Positions 3 through 3,824 of a DNA stretch of 37,657 nucleotides are shown one piece after another. The first letter of the stretch is position 1. Every line of letters begins with the position of its first letter. Both the position numbers and the translations under genes were made by a program. Origin of the DNA: Bacteroidota bacterium (GTDB lineage: Bacteria > Bacteroidota > Bacteroidia > Flavobacteriales_E > Vicingaceae); contig JACPDX010000046.1 of the NCBI GenBank assembly GCA_016183805.1, positions 18,357 through 56,013 of the forward strand, read 5' to 3'. The notes under the pieces are model-generated. The model saw only the letters and a program-made list of their open reading frames with translations, made no database searches and was not told the DNA's origin.

Positions 3-1712
3 AATAAATTAACAAAAATATTATTCGGAGGTAAGACAGAATCTGATTTTAAGAAGGAATTATCTGATATTTTCAAAAACAAGTCATCTTATGAAGACAT
101 TACAGCACTTCACGCAATAAAGAACAAAGACGAAAAATTAAATAGACAAGAGCAAGAAAACACAAAATCACTCACTACAACAATAAAACCTGAATTAACT
201 GTCGGAAAAGATGGTGTTGGTGGTAGTCTAGGTAGTTTGGAAGGCAAATATGAACAAAAAAAGACAAAAGGACAATCAGAACTGACGAGCATAGAATATT
301 CAGGTGTCTTAATAAGATACTTTAATATAATTGACTTAATGAATCAGATTAAGAAATTGCTTATTAGTTTAAAAATAAAAACAGTGTTTATCTGTCTAGA
401 TGATGCTTCAGAACTTGAAAAAGATGCTTTGGAAACTTTTATGAGATGTGTTGTTACACCATTAAACAACTCTTCCGAAGGTTTTTTCAAGTTTAAGATT
501 TCTTTTTACCCAGGTAGAGATTTGCTTCCTGAAATTGATAGAACAAAAGTTGAAACAATAAACTTAGATTACTACAACTTATATCAAAATACAGGAAGAG
601 ATAAAGTAGAAGAAAATGCTATAAAATATACAGAAAGATTACTTAGAAAGAGGTTTGACTATTATTTTGGAAAAGATTCCTTATTAGAAGATTTTTTTGA
701 TGTGTCATCAGTTACAATTAATCAATATTACAAGCAATTATTTTATTCAAGTTCAAATGTGCCTAGAAACTTAGGGAAAATTCTTTGGTATGCATCTCGA
801 ATGTCAATTTTTGAAGGAAAAAAAATTACTAAAGCAATTATTCAAGAAGCTACAAAACAGCATTATCTGCAAGAAACAAGAACAGTATTTTTTAAAAATG
901 AATTTATTCAATATAAAGATTATAACGAAAAATTTGAAAAAGAGCATTTGAAAAACTTAGTTAATGAGATTATATTAAAAGCTAAAGATAACAAACGTCA
1001 TATTGGGAACTCCTCATCTGCTATTTTCAAAAACTACACTACTAACACAGCTCCTTCAAATTACTTGTATTTTATTCCTGAATTCGAAAGTTTAATAGCA
1101 AGTCTTGAATTAAACTTTTTTATAACAAAACATTCTCAACAAAAAGATAGAGGAAGTGGGTCAGGTTCAAATTATATTCCCCCAAAAGAAGTAAGTATTT
1201 ATACATTAAACTATGGTCTATGCCAAAGTGAAGACATCATATATGATGAAAATAGTGATCGTAAATTTAGAATTGAACGTGTTTTTGATTTTAATAACTT
1301 AATAATAAATTGGGCAAATTCTCAAAAATCTATAATCTGCAATAACTGTAATGCAACTCATAGTTTAGAAAAACTAGATGCAATTAAAGCACTTGGTATG
1401 ATTTGTACCGAATGTGGACAAAAAACGTGTGAAATAATTACAAATAACAATACATTAAAAATAGTAGAAAATAGTGTTCAAATTCCTGAAAAGTATTTCC
1501 AAATCTTAAATACTCTTATGATTGAAGATGGTCAAAAGGTAAGAGATATTTCAACAGAATTAGATTATAATAGGTGGACAATTTCGGCATTAATAAGAAG
1601 TGACCGTTTATTACAGATTGAAGAATATATTACCCCAAAAAATGAAAATGGAACAAAACATTATTATATAACAGAAAAAGCAAAAAACATATTTTTCAAT
1701 GGCTCTAACTAA
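3..1712 (+). CDS. AAA+-type ATPase with zinc ribbon and winged helix, 5' end outside window
   Basis: The frame is open from the first bases of the window to the TAA at 1710-1712 (569 visible codons), so the N-terminus, and presumably the Walker A loop, lies upstream. The TTG at 237 lies mid-frame and is not a credible start. In visible numbering a hydrophobic strand ending in Asp133-Asp134 (VFICLDD) fits a Walker B motif, and NVPRNL around residues 253-257 fits the AAA+ sensor 2 arginine. Cys446/Cys449 and Cys468/Cys471 form a CxxC...CxxC zinc ribbon. The last ~75 residues look like a winged helix. Known AAA+ proteins of this layout (Orc/Cdc6- or STAND-like) are DNA-linked. The exact family was not recognised. 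It overlaps the endonuclease gene by 14 bp, so the two are probably co-translated and act together. A defence or restriction role is inferred from that neighbour. Confidence 0.72.
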   Translation, partial: NKLTKILFGGKTESDFKKELSDIFKNKSSYEDITALHAIKNKDEKLNRQEQENTKSLTTTIKPELTVGKDGVGGSLGSLEGKYEQKKTKGQSELTSIEYSGVLIRYFNIIDLMNQIKKLLISLKIKTVFICLDDASELEKDALETFMRCVVTPLNNSSEGFFKFKISFYPGRDLLPEIDRTKVETINLDYYNLYQNTGRDKVEENAIKYTERLLRKRFDYYFGKDSLLEDFFDVSSVTINQYYKQLFYSSSNVPRNLGKILWYASRMSIFEGKKITKAIIQEATKQHYLQETRTVFFKNEFIQYKDYNEKFEKEHLKNLVNEIILKAKDNKRHIGNSSSAIFKNYTTNTAPSNYLYFIPEFESLIASLELNFFITKHSQQKDRGSGSGSNYIPPKEVSIYTLNYGLCQSEDIIYDENSDRKFRIERVFDFNNLIINWANSQKSIICNNCNATHSLEKLDAIKALGMICTECGQKTCEIITNNNTLKIVENSVQIPEKYFQILNTLMIEDGQKVRDISTELDYNRWTISALIRSDRLLQIEEYITPKNENGTKHYYITEKAKNIFFNGSN

Positions 1713-2754
1713 TCAACAAAAAGAGAAAATATCAATTGAAGTAATCAAAACCTTAGTTACACGGTTTGATAATTTTCCAGAAGATGCATCTAATAATAGA
1801 AATGCACCTTTTCACGAAGCATTTCTTAATGCATTTTCAGATAAACTTAACGGCAAAGTTTCAGATACTCCTTTTTTCATAAGTTTAAGCAGTTGGTTGC
1901 ACGGTTTAAACACTACATTAGGTCAAATTTTCTTCGAAAATATTGCACACCATCTTTGCAATGGAGAAAAAAGAGAATATACCTCTAAAAGATTAGGTAA
2001 TCTAAAAATTACCCAAACTCAAAGAAATCACATTTCTCAAATTATTGCTGACCTTAGTAATACAACTACAACACCAGATTTAACAAATGAAAACAACCTT
2101 TTATTTGCAAATTACAATGATGCTGTAATAAATGCTATGGACTTCTCCGCTGATGTTTTTATTGAAGACACAAACACCATAACCGCTATAGAGTTGAAAT
2201 CTGTAAAACCTAACTCCGGTGAAATGAAAGGAGAAAAACAGAAAATACTTGAAGGAAAAGCTGCCTTATACAGACTATTTCCAGGAAAACAAATACATTT
2301 CTATATGGGTTTTCCTTTTGATCCAACTGTAAATCCTGCGACTGATACTGTTACCAGTTTTAACAAAACAAGATTCTTGGGCTCAATTATAAATATGACG
2401 AAATATTTTGACCCAAACGAAACTCTAGTAGCAAGTGAATTGTGGAATATGCTTTCAGGTCAGCCAAATACTATGGAAGAAATATTGGAAATAATTAATG
2501 CAATTTCAACTACTTCATTCTTAAGTAAGTTTCAGCTGTTAACCGACAACACTAGAAGATTATCTCCTGAATACAGAAATCAGTTAAATGAATGGAATTT
2601 GTTTTCAGAGTTAGAGCTGATTGACAATAATAATTCACTCGTTCAAAATATTGGAACAGATACAACTTTAATAAGAATTTACAATAAAATAGCTTTTGAC
2701 AAAAAAGGAAATTATAATACTGAAAGATACTCGACATTAAAACAATTAATATAA
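1699..2754 (+). CDS. TdeIII-family type II restriction endonuclease
   Basis: This 351-residue protein resembles, from memory, TdeIII-family type II restriction endonucleases over its whole length (for example SNNRNAPFHEAFL near residue 31, and SSWLHGLNTTLGQ near 64). A PD-(D/E)xK-like metal site can be read as Asp152 (SADVFI), Glu165 and Lys167 (AIELKSV), followed by a conserved-looking GEKQKILEGKAAL helix. It would cut double-stranded DNA at a site that cannot be predicted here. The ATG at 1699 lies inside the end of the ATPase gene in another frame, which suggests translational coupling. No DNA methyltransferase is present downstream. If one exists it must lie left of the window. The family call rests on remembered sequence similarity and is not database-checked. 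Confidence 0.75.
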   Translation: MALTNQQKEKISIEVIKTLVTRFDNFPEDASNNRNAPFHEAFLNAFSDKLNGKVSDTPFFISLSSWLHGLNTTLGQIFFENIAHHLCNGEKREYTSKRLGNLKITQTQRNHISQIIADLSNTTTTPDLTNENNLLFANYNDAVINAMDFSADVFIEDTNTITAIELKSVKPNSGEMKGEKQKILEGKAALYRLFPGKQIHFYMGFPFDPTVNPATDTVTSFNKTRFLGSIINMTKYFDPNETLVASELWNMLSGQPNTMEEILEIINAISTTSFLSKFQLLTDNTRRLSPEYRNQLNEWNLFSELELIDNNNSLVQNIGTDTTLIRIYNKIAFDKKGNYNTERYSTLKQLI

Positions 2755-2996: not shown

Positions 2997-3082
2997 CGTT
3001 TCCAAAAGAAAAAAAGCCCCACGAACTGCGGGGCTTTCCATTTGCACTAACTAAAAGGTGGGAAATATAAGGGGGTAAACAA
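2997..3082. repeat. 85-bp direct repeat, copy 1
   Basis: This stretch matches 3732-3816 with one substitution (TTTCC versus TTCCC near the left end) and one A-run length difference. It contains a GC-rich terminator hairpin and an adjoining segment ending in GGGGGTAAACAA. The two copies are 735 bp apart and bracket the single gene at 3178-3723. Confidence 0.9.
3009..3037 (-). terminator. Rho-independent terminator, copy 1
   Basis: AAAGCCCC (3013-3020) pairs with GGGGCTTT (3030-3037) around a 9-nt loop. The A-run at 3009-3015 becomes the U-tract only when read on the minus strand, so the hairpin best stops leftward transcription. It may also act weakly rightward at the end of the restriction gene transcript. 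Confidence 0.7.
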
Positions 3083-3135
3083 TTAACCATGCTAAAAGAA
3101 TTGAGTGTTAAAAAATATATTAGTAATAATTTTAG

Positions 3136-3177: not shown

Positions 3178-3723
3178 GTGAACGCTAAAAATTTTATCAA
3201 ACAGTTGCTCTTTATTAAAGTACTACTACTTTTTTTGACCTTGTCATTTACAGTGGAATTGTTAGCCCAAAACTATGAGAAAGAAAAAGAAGAACTTTTC
3301 ACAACAATTGCACCACGAGTAGGTTTTGGAGTTCATAACGGATTTCATTTTGAAGCAGGTCTTTCAGTATTGCACATCTCAAACAGAGCTCTTCAATGGG
3401 GTGCTGCAAGTCTTTACACCACTTATTTTGTGAGTCAAGATGATTTTAACTCGGGTTTAAATGTTAACGGTTTAAAGATTGGAGTTCAAAGTTCTTACGT
3501 ATTTTTTATGTGGGGTTTAGAGGTAAAAACTGGTAGTTACAATAATAATATGTTTACTTATTTCTCTCCTAAATTTGGACTTAGTTGGTTAGACGTAGTG
3601 AATGTCGAGTATTTAATAAATATAGCAGGTAAGAATGATGACTTTCCATGGAAAAGCAATCACCAAATAGGGATTAATATTAGTTTGAACAAAAAGATTT
3701 ACAACAATATTTGGAAAAAATAA
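3178..3723 (+). CDS. Small secreted or outer-membrane protein, function unknown
   Basis: A 181-residue protein starting at GTG. No in-frame ATG is available upstream, and the ATG at 3159 is followed by an early stop. Residues ~8-30 form a hydrophobic signal peptide ending in LLAQ, a typical Bacteroidota cleavage context. The mature part alternates hydrophobic and polar residues with many aromatics and glycines (APRVGFGVHNGFHFEAGL, GLKIGVQSSYVFFMWGLEV), consistent with a small outer-membrane beta-barrel. No enzyme motif was recognised. It stands alone between two 85-bp repeats and behind a perfect hairpin, so it may be a recently inserted or duplicated unit. Alternative: a periplasmic beta-sandwich protein. 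Confidence 0.65.
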   Translation: MNAKNFIKQLLFIKVLLLFLTLSFTVELLAQNYEKEKEELFTTIAPRVGFGVHNGFHFEAGLSVLHISNRALQWGAASLYTTYFVSQDDFNSGLNVNGLKIGVQSSYVFFMWGLEVKTGSYNNNMFTYFSPKFGLSWLDVVNVEYLINIAGKNDDFPWKSNHQIGINISLNKKIYNNIWKK

Positions 3724-3731
3724 CTGCAAAA

Positions 3732-3816
3732 CGTTCCCAAAAGAAAAAAAGCCCCACGAACTGCGGGGCTTTCCATTTGCACTAACTAAAGGTGGGAAAT
3801 ATAAGGGGGTAAACAA
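3732..3816. repeat. 85-bp direct repeat, copy 2
   Basis: This is the second copy of the repeat at 2997-3082. It begins 8 bp after the stop codon of the gene at 3178-3723 and lies 93 bp beyond the 3' end of the leftward GIN-domain gene. Here the terminator is in the expected place for that gene, so this copy is more likely the original and copy 1 the duplicate. Confidence 0.9.
3744..3772 (-). terminator. Rho-independent terminator, copy 2
   Basis: AAAGCCCC (3748-3755) pairs with GGGGCTTT (3765-3772), with the A7 run at 3744-3750 giving a minus-strand U-tract. It lies about 140 nt past the stop of the GIN-domain gene and probably ends that leftward transcript. It may also slow rightward transcription from 3178-3723. 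Confidence 0.75.
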
Positions 3817-3824
3817 CTAAATTT

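Follow-up and report, generated by a model that had tools for sequence, protein, structure and literature searches.

A predicted zinc-ribbon ATPase gene between methyltransferase and nuclease in a TdeIII-type restriction-modification operon, and the exchange of genes in that slot

Introduction

The subject of this article is a restriction-modification (RM) operon that enters a 37,657-nucleotide stretch of DNA from a member of the Bacteroidota (Vicingaceae; contig JACPDX010000046.1, here C70:18357-56013, within a 3.47-Mb draft genome), referred to below as the window, and in particular the gene for an uncharacterised ATPase that lies in this operon between the genes for the methyltransferase (M) and the TdeIII-family nuclease (R). 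The locus is a type II RM operon carrying one gene beyond the usual set, and among related loci the M-R pair recurs while the third gene is exchanged. I judge it fairly probable that the operon is an ordinary type II system and that its ATPase, a defence-type protein acting autonomously, is exchangeable cargo lodged between M and R. An original prediction, made from the letters of the window, had instead suggested a dedicated defence pair of ATPase and nuclease; this was rejected once the neighbours of other TdeIII genes had been surveyed, and the simple type II alternative that the same prediction had named, with a methyltransferase immediately upstream and no conserved ATPase neighbour, is largely what came up.

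A type II operon with one additional gene

Two open reading frames (ORFs) on the + strand, overlapping by 14 bp as predicted, open the window: the 3' part of the ATPase gene (3..1712; 569 residues, its 5' end open, delimited by the ORF and by alignment with longer homologues) and the long form of a TdeIII-family nuclease gene (1699..2754; 351 residues, assigned from ORF, Pfam and alignment), with the ATPase stop codon falling within the first bases of R (overlap 1699..1712). The flanking stretch (L003, in which a position minus 10357 gives the window position; L and G numbers below denote loci and genomes) places an 8-N scaffold gap exactly where the window starts. Left of this gap, outside the window, are the 138 codons of the ATPase 5' part (L003:9935-10348, that is C70 17934-18347), including the Walker A motif GRKGTGKST that the original prediction proposed to look for there (L003:10109-10135, or C70 18108-18134), and further upstream on the same strand lie the N6/N4 methyltransferase gene M (L003:8358, its ATG, to 9935; N6_N4_Mtase, E-value 2e-12) and an XRE regulator gene (L003:8036-8356; Pfam HTH_19, 7.8e-11). 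The gene order is thus regulator-M-ATPase-R, and one base is common to the M stop and the ATPase start (TAATG). With exactly 8 N the two ATPase halves are out of frame with each other; the 8 N are taken as a scaffolding estimate, and the continuity of the gene is suggested by its full-length homologues rather than read directly. The claim that ATPase and nuclease share one operon is supported, and an unrelated housekeeping gene reading into the operon is ruled out by the TAATG junction, the 14-bp overlap with R and the rarity of ATPase homologues.

The assignment of the second gene as a TdeIII-type nuclease with a D...ExK site also holds: R matches Pfam RE_TdeIII at 6e-65 (219.7 bits, above the cut-off of 27.2) and PADLOC REase_II at 6.4e-79, and D152 and E165-x-K167 of the PD-(D/E)xK site are conserved without exception in the 16 long-form proteins aligned, among them the window R. 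An AlphaFold2 model of R (mean predicted local distance difference test score, pLDDT, 83.8) ranks EcoO109I first in a fold search with three chains, weakly (E 0.015-0.024, probability 0.80-0.97, and low template modelling scores of 0.27-0.36 by query); no match reached E <= 0.001 in this search, and none was found with the R profile among the sequences of solved structures. EcoO109I and TdeIII recognise related GGNCC-type sites, and type II M and R enzymes modify and cut without ATP. The likeness to TdeIII/EcoO109I-type systems with their C, M and R genes lies in the RE_TdeIII nuclease, the N6_N4_Mtase methyltransferase and an XRE regulator accompanied by operator-like repeats, the difference being the ATPase gene embedded between M and R. 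The repeats are two 21-bp copies, TTTGGACTATTATTGTCCAAT and TTTGGACAAAATATGACCAAT, 71% alike, 40 bp apart and each roughly palindromic, located at the start of the regulator gene, with the second extending into the start codon; I take this pair to be what is expected of a C-protein operator.

TdeIII nucleases were detected in 29 of 395 genomes of the window's phylum and 25 of 395 of its class (its own genome in both counts), and in none of the plasmids and phages searched. Within this family, nuclease genes also occur in doublets: tandem TdeIII genes, long then short form, follow a single methyltransferase at L009:7001-8843 and L010:4209-6101, one of these loci belonging to an archaeal bin, and the two proteins are possibly two subunits or two specificities; also, an EcoO109I-family nuclease gene adjoins the TdeIII gene in the same operon at L026:6032-6949 and L110:6270-7034.

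Turnover of the gene between M and R

The exchange of the third gene was followed in 71 TdeIII loci, made up of the window and 24, 28 and 18 loci from successive searches; among the 25 genomes of the class with a TdeIII match, the contexts of 18 were taken besides the window's own, and G832, G837, G1004, G826, G872 and G1019 were left out as fragmentary or weak matches. The M-R junction was placed in 61 of the 71, with adjacency meaning 60 bp or less and with the smallest ORF counted being 60 residues in 53 loci and 55 residues in 18; the ten loci whose junction was unplaced (L017, L022, L088, L089, L109, L111, L112, L117, L118 and L119) stand outside the slot count, and one of these, L088, has a 309-residue ORF before R. 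M and R adjoin without a third gene at 38 of the 61 junctions (L026 is scored here since the EcoO109I-like gene next to its M passes the R profile too), at three more they are separated by 191-241 bp that contain no ORF, and 20 hold at least one ORF. Because 38 of 61 junctions lack a third gene, the TdeIII family as a whole needs no ATPase.

The occupants of the slot are diverse. AIPR genes (Pfam PF10592) fill it at seven of the 61 junctions (L007, L009, L016, L024, L064, L102 and L104; the L016 protein matches PADLOC AbiU at 2.2e-46) and an N-terminal AIPR remnant sits in L069; a family of 377-454 residues without a database match is found in L008, L081 and L107, with an internally deleted remnant in L006; two families of small ORFs occupy L063, L087 and L103, and L011 and L072, respectively; L021 and L110 are single cases, the latter being scored as occupied by its EcoO109I-like gene; and the ATPase occupies the slot in the window. 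The 377-residue family has a PDF...EVG stretch that by eye resembles a PD-(D/E)xK nuclease, an assignment for which searches gave no backing. With a profile built from the slot AIPRs themselves, nine AIPR-like ORFs were counted among the 874 ORFs of the TdeIII loci, seven of them in the slot and the other two being the two halves of a single broken gene that immediately follows R in L020. As far as the contigs reach, the other 70 TdeIII loci contain no intact ATPase; L102 alone has a remnant of it, 73 residues long. Small ORFs of one family, about 62-81 residues in length, were seen on either side of R, behind it in L068, L073, L086 and L088 and between M and R in L011 and L072.

In addition, the 14-bp overlap with R recurs in six of the 20 occupied slots (window, L009, L011, L063, L102 and L104), and the genes that form it differ, being AIPR, small ORFs or the ATPase; in the remaining 14 the end of the last slot ORF falls within a range from 16 bp before R to 1 bp inside it. 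Relatives of the window operon differ in their third gene: an M that is 79-82% identical accompanies R in L006, L008 and L009, and nucleases that are 73-81% identical to the window R come with other slot genes (L006 with its remnant, L007, L008 and L009) or with none (L010). Similarly, the AIPRs of L009 and L064 are 79.5% identical to each other despite being joined to a long-form and a short-form R. On a tree of R (49 rows; a quick tree with a long-branch warning, which predates the last 18 loci and omits L017, L022, L026, L088, L089 and R pieces under 200 residues) every cargo family with several rows is dispersed, six changes are needed to account for the six rows labelled AIPR, and the seven-row clade that includes the window R carries the ATPase, two members of the 377-residue family (one of them a remnant), two AIPRs, a 63-residue ORF and an empty slot. 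A label test on the same tree, weak with its few rows per label, needed 14 changes, where shuffling gave a mean of 14.6 and 68 of 200 shuffles were as low, so that labels show no clustering, in line with the scattering.

The single most telling observation comes from L102 (genome G861), which reads as a replacement fossil in which the ATPase was formerly in the slot and an AIPR is there now. Here the order is M (62.5% identical), AIPR, two stops, the 73-residue ATPase remnant and R; the remnant matches the end of the window ATPase (residues 495-567) at 71% identity and enters R by the same 14-bp overlap as in the window, and this R is a different one, of the short form and 24.7% identical to the window R over 215 residues. 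With this remnant counted, the ATPase has occupied two TdeIII slots or more, which tells against its being a one-off in the window.

The ATPase family and its homologues

What can be said of the ATPase from its motifs points to an uncharacterised family with a P-loop part, a zinc ribbon and a C-terminal winged helix, the other copies of which lie in mobile-type contexts or beside RM genes; to this extent the original prediction is supported. The Walker B motif FICLDD (387..404, + strand) and the zinc ribbon CNNC ... CTEC (1338..1415, + strand, with CxxC at 1338-1349 and 1404-1415) named in that prediction are present and conserved in homologues: LDD is invariant in a four-row alignment and DD alone once the L092 homologue is added, and the four cysteines are invariant across the four-homologue alignment, the zinc-ribbon Pfam matches of the window piece being sub-threshold (0.033 and 0.093). 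Two further features had to be trimmed, namely the sensor 2, for which no more than a conserved PR motif (NVPRNLG, 756-776) can be claimed, and the winged helix (1485..1703, + strand; residues 495-567 of the window piece, 73 residues), which in the window piece rests on a weak NCBIfam cas_HTH match (0.003) and stands through MarR/Lrs14-type winged-helix matches at the C-terminus of the homologues and with the family profile. The N-terminal part matches the Sll1717 model NF047389 (2.5e-9 for the window 5' half, 8.6e-10 for L032), and the L090 protein matches the DS41_1 model NF053860 at 1.9e-8, a model unlisted for L032; nSTAND matches of the window 5' half are sub-threshold only.

Six longer homologues of 705-731 residues share 30-52% mutual identity, and their neighbourhoods (with the prophage, relaxase, repressor and mobile-element labels in L032, L090, L093 and L100 assigned by eye) are varied. 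The L032 gene, from another genome of the window's class (G025), precedes a PLD-domain gene near mobilisation-like genes; that of L005 comes from a 6-kb Enterobacter plasmid, where a replication gene is its neighbour; those of L090 and L093 lie at the ends of prophage-like contigs, one side unseen in each, the latter beside a repressor-like gene; the L100 gene is in a mobile-element-like region, and the gene that follows it has a borderline HNH match; and the L092 gene stands 145 bp behind a type III RM pair (N6_N4_Mtase 2.7e-50, ResIII 2.3e-15). RM genes thus neighbour the ATPase at three places, the window, L102 (remnant) and L092, and in the stretches examined none was recognised beside the homologues of L005, L032, L090, L093 and L100. 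A decayed N-terminal ATPase fragment with an altered Walker A was also seen at L101:6263-8673 (G1049), adjoined by genes that I presume to be DarT-like and DarG-like.

The family is rare wherever it was looked for. It was found in two of 395 genomes of the window's phylum and five of 395 of its class (its own included in both, and two of the five with fragments only), in none of the 12 genomes behind 12 TdeIII loci, and in none of 398 genomes of the phylum of G395, a search run without a positive control. Among plasmids a single record, identical each time, was found with the window piece, L032 and L005 as queries; no ATPase was found in phages, and the DNA of the L005 gene found no match in Escherichia coli genomes. 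In viral contigs there was none with the window piece and none with query A1 (its start misaligned), one with query A2, and three loci with query A3, of which L091 is the L090 contig again.

Neighbouring features

Both edges of the RM operon carry a short motif, TGCCAACGCT(A/G)AAA with at most one mismatch (L003:7912, window 2755 and 2834), which may mark the insertion of the module. A mobile element carrying the operon was considered and rejected, the sequence downstream of R being single-copy in the genome, barring short weak matches. Further along, an intergenic sequence of about 88 bp that includes a terminator-like hairpin (AAAGCCCCACGAACTGCGGGGCTTT) is present in two almost identical copies, at 2997-3086 and 3732-3820, which flank a 181-residue ORF (3178-3723).

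Discussion

In the reading that I favour, R and M would form an ordinary type II pair, cutting incoming DNA that is unmethylated and needing no ATP for it, and the ATPase would act beside them: nucleic acid or some partner may be bound through its zinc ribbon and winged helix, its P-loop module, whose resemblance to the Sll1717 and DS41_1 models is distant, may switch or oligomerise upon an infection cue, and the protein would then block the invader or the cell. Because the ATPase gene lies between M and R and overlaps both, it would be co-transcribed with them and probably be translationally coupled to R; it would also be regulated together with the RM module and spread with it as a second layer. 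A bolder version, which I hold only tentatively, is that the M-R junction is a standing cargo slot in which AbiU/AIPR, a putative nuclease family and the ATPase swap while M and R persist, partly by way of the 14-bp overlap, and that the ATPase represents an undescribed zinc-ribbon/winged-helix defence family watching over the RM layer.

Several observations pull the other way. Against known models the ATPases score far short of the cut-offs, be it NF047389 (75 bits required; 36.8 for the window 5' half, 38.3 for L032, 31.2 for L005 and 42.6 for L090) or NF053860 (370 bits required; 20.4 for the window 5' half, 22.9 for L005 and 33.7 for L090), a PADLOC scan of the ATPases gave nothing convincing, and an effector or toxin domain was not recognised in the family. 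The full-length model of the L092 homologue is too poor to use (pLDDT 48.7), and a Foldseek search with it gave no match at E <= 0.001. Furthermore, the window ATPase deviates at residues that its homologues conserve (LDDASE for LDDFSE, SFYPGR for AAYPGR), which together with the assembly gap might mean that this copy is decaying; the regulator was detected by tblastn in only two of 24 relatives (L006 and L008); and the finding of the ATPase in two TdeIII slots, once intact and once as a remnant, can be read as a hint of a functional fit with R.

Among other explanations, the best placed is that the ATPase guards the RM system, sensing that it has been inhibited or overcome and then shutting down the cell, as PrrC does in EcoprrI. 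I regard this as unlikely, even though the ATPase is inside an RM operon here, has left a remnant in a second and stands behind a type III RM pair in L092, and even though the slot also hosts AIPR/AbiU abortive-infection proteins and passages of PMC12707154 describe PrrC and PARIS as RM guardians. Five full-length homologues (L005, L032, L090, L093 and L100, two of these, L090 and L093, seen on one side only) have no recognised RM neighbour, and the ATPase has no toxin domain that could be recognised. An autonomous defence layer is my preference over such a guardian role.

The dedicated pair of the original prediction, in which ATPase and TdeIII nuclease form one effector for ATP-driven or target-licensed cutting, seems very improbable by now. 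It would explain the shared operon, the gene overlap and the return of the same overlap in a second TdeIII slot with the ATPase remnant, and the G025 homologue that precedes a PLD-domain gene would be in keeping with it. However, the operon has its methyltransferase, a third gene is absent from 38 of 61 junctions, the 70 other loci yielded no intact ATPase, nucleases 73-81% identical to R make do with other slot genes or none, and AIPR and small ORFs form the 14-bp overlap as well. I give equally little credence to the ATPase being a housekeeping protein of mobile elements (acting in DNA targeting, partition or replication control) that became trapped in the operon and has no defence role, since the sub-threshold TniB (2.6e-4) and ORC-CDC6-like (4.3e-5) Pfam matches of the window 5' half (the latter, AAA+ model PF24389, at 22.9 bits against a cut-off of 27; neither listed for L032 or L005), the homologue by a replication gene on a 6-kb plasmid and the others in mobile-element-like regions are set against contexts among which no transposase, integrase or partition partner was found to recur, the occurrence of the ATPase in two TdeIII slots and at a type III RM locus, and the G1049 fragment, whose adjoining genes I presume to be DarT/DarG-like.

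Accessory genes inside RM operons are already known. PrrC in EcoprrI is one, according to passages of PMC12707154; EcoprrI is of type I and PrrC is a tRNA anticodon nuclease, a part not recognised here in a comparison made by description, and the embedded arrangement is met in the TdeIII loci with the third gene exchanged while M and R stay. A preprint from 2024 on embedded defences, listed among the references of PMC13092281, concerns by its title the same general phenomenon. AbiU/AIPR proteins, which form an abortive-infection family, often accompany RM systems according to passages of PMC3506569, and a figure legend of PMC5608340 mentions an AIPR in a type II operon; AIPR occupies the same M-R slot at seven of 61 junctions, and the window differs in having an ATPase as its cargo. 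The ATPase resembles the Sll1717 and DS41_1 families in its N-terminal P-loop part, below their cut-offs, and differs by its added zinc ribbon and winged helix; NF053860, to go by its name, would be the validated DS-41 of PMC13092281, as far as the consulted part of that paper goes. A search of a limited literature collection found no paper on TdeIII, Sll1717, genes inserted between M and R or the zinc ribbon/winged helix combination, and the examined passages of PMC10121019 hold nothing on genes inside RM operons. Within the literature searched, the repeated replacement of cargo in one type II M-R slot, the L102 fossil and the ATPase as cargo seem to be new.

The ATPase family is a candidate for a new single-gene defence, and reading the gene content between M and R offers a simple search rule for others. 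A slot that is refilled repeatedly is also a natural experiment, with a constant RM backbone and varying second layers, and genes embedded in immune operons provide a route to new defences.

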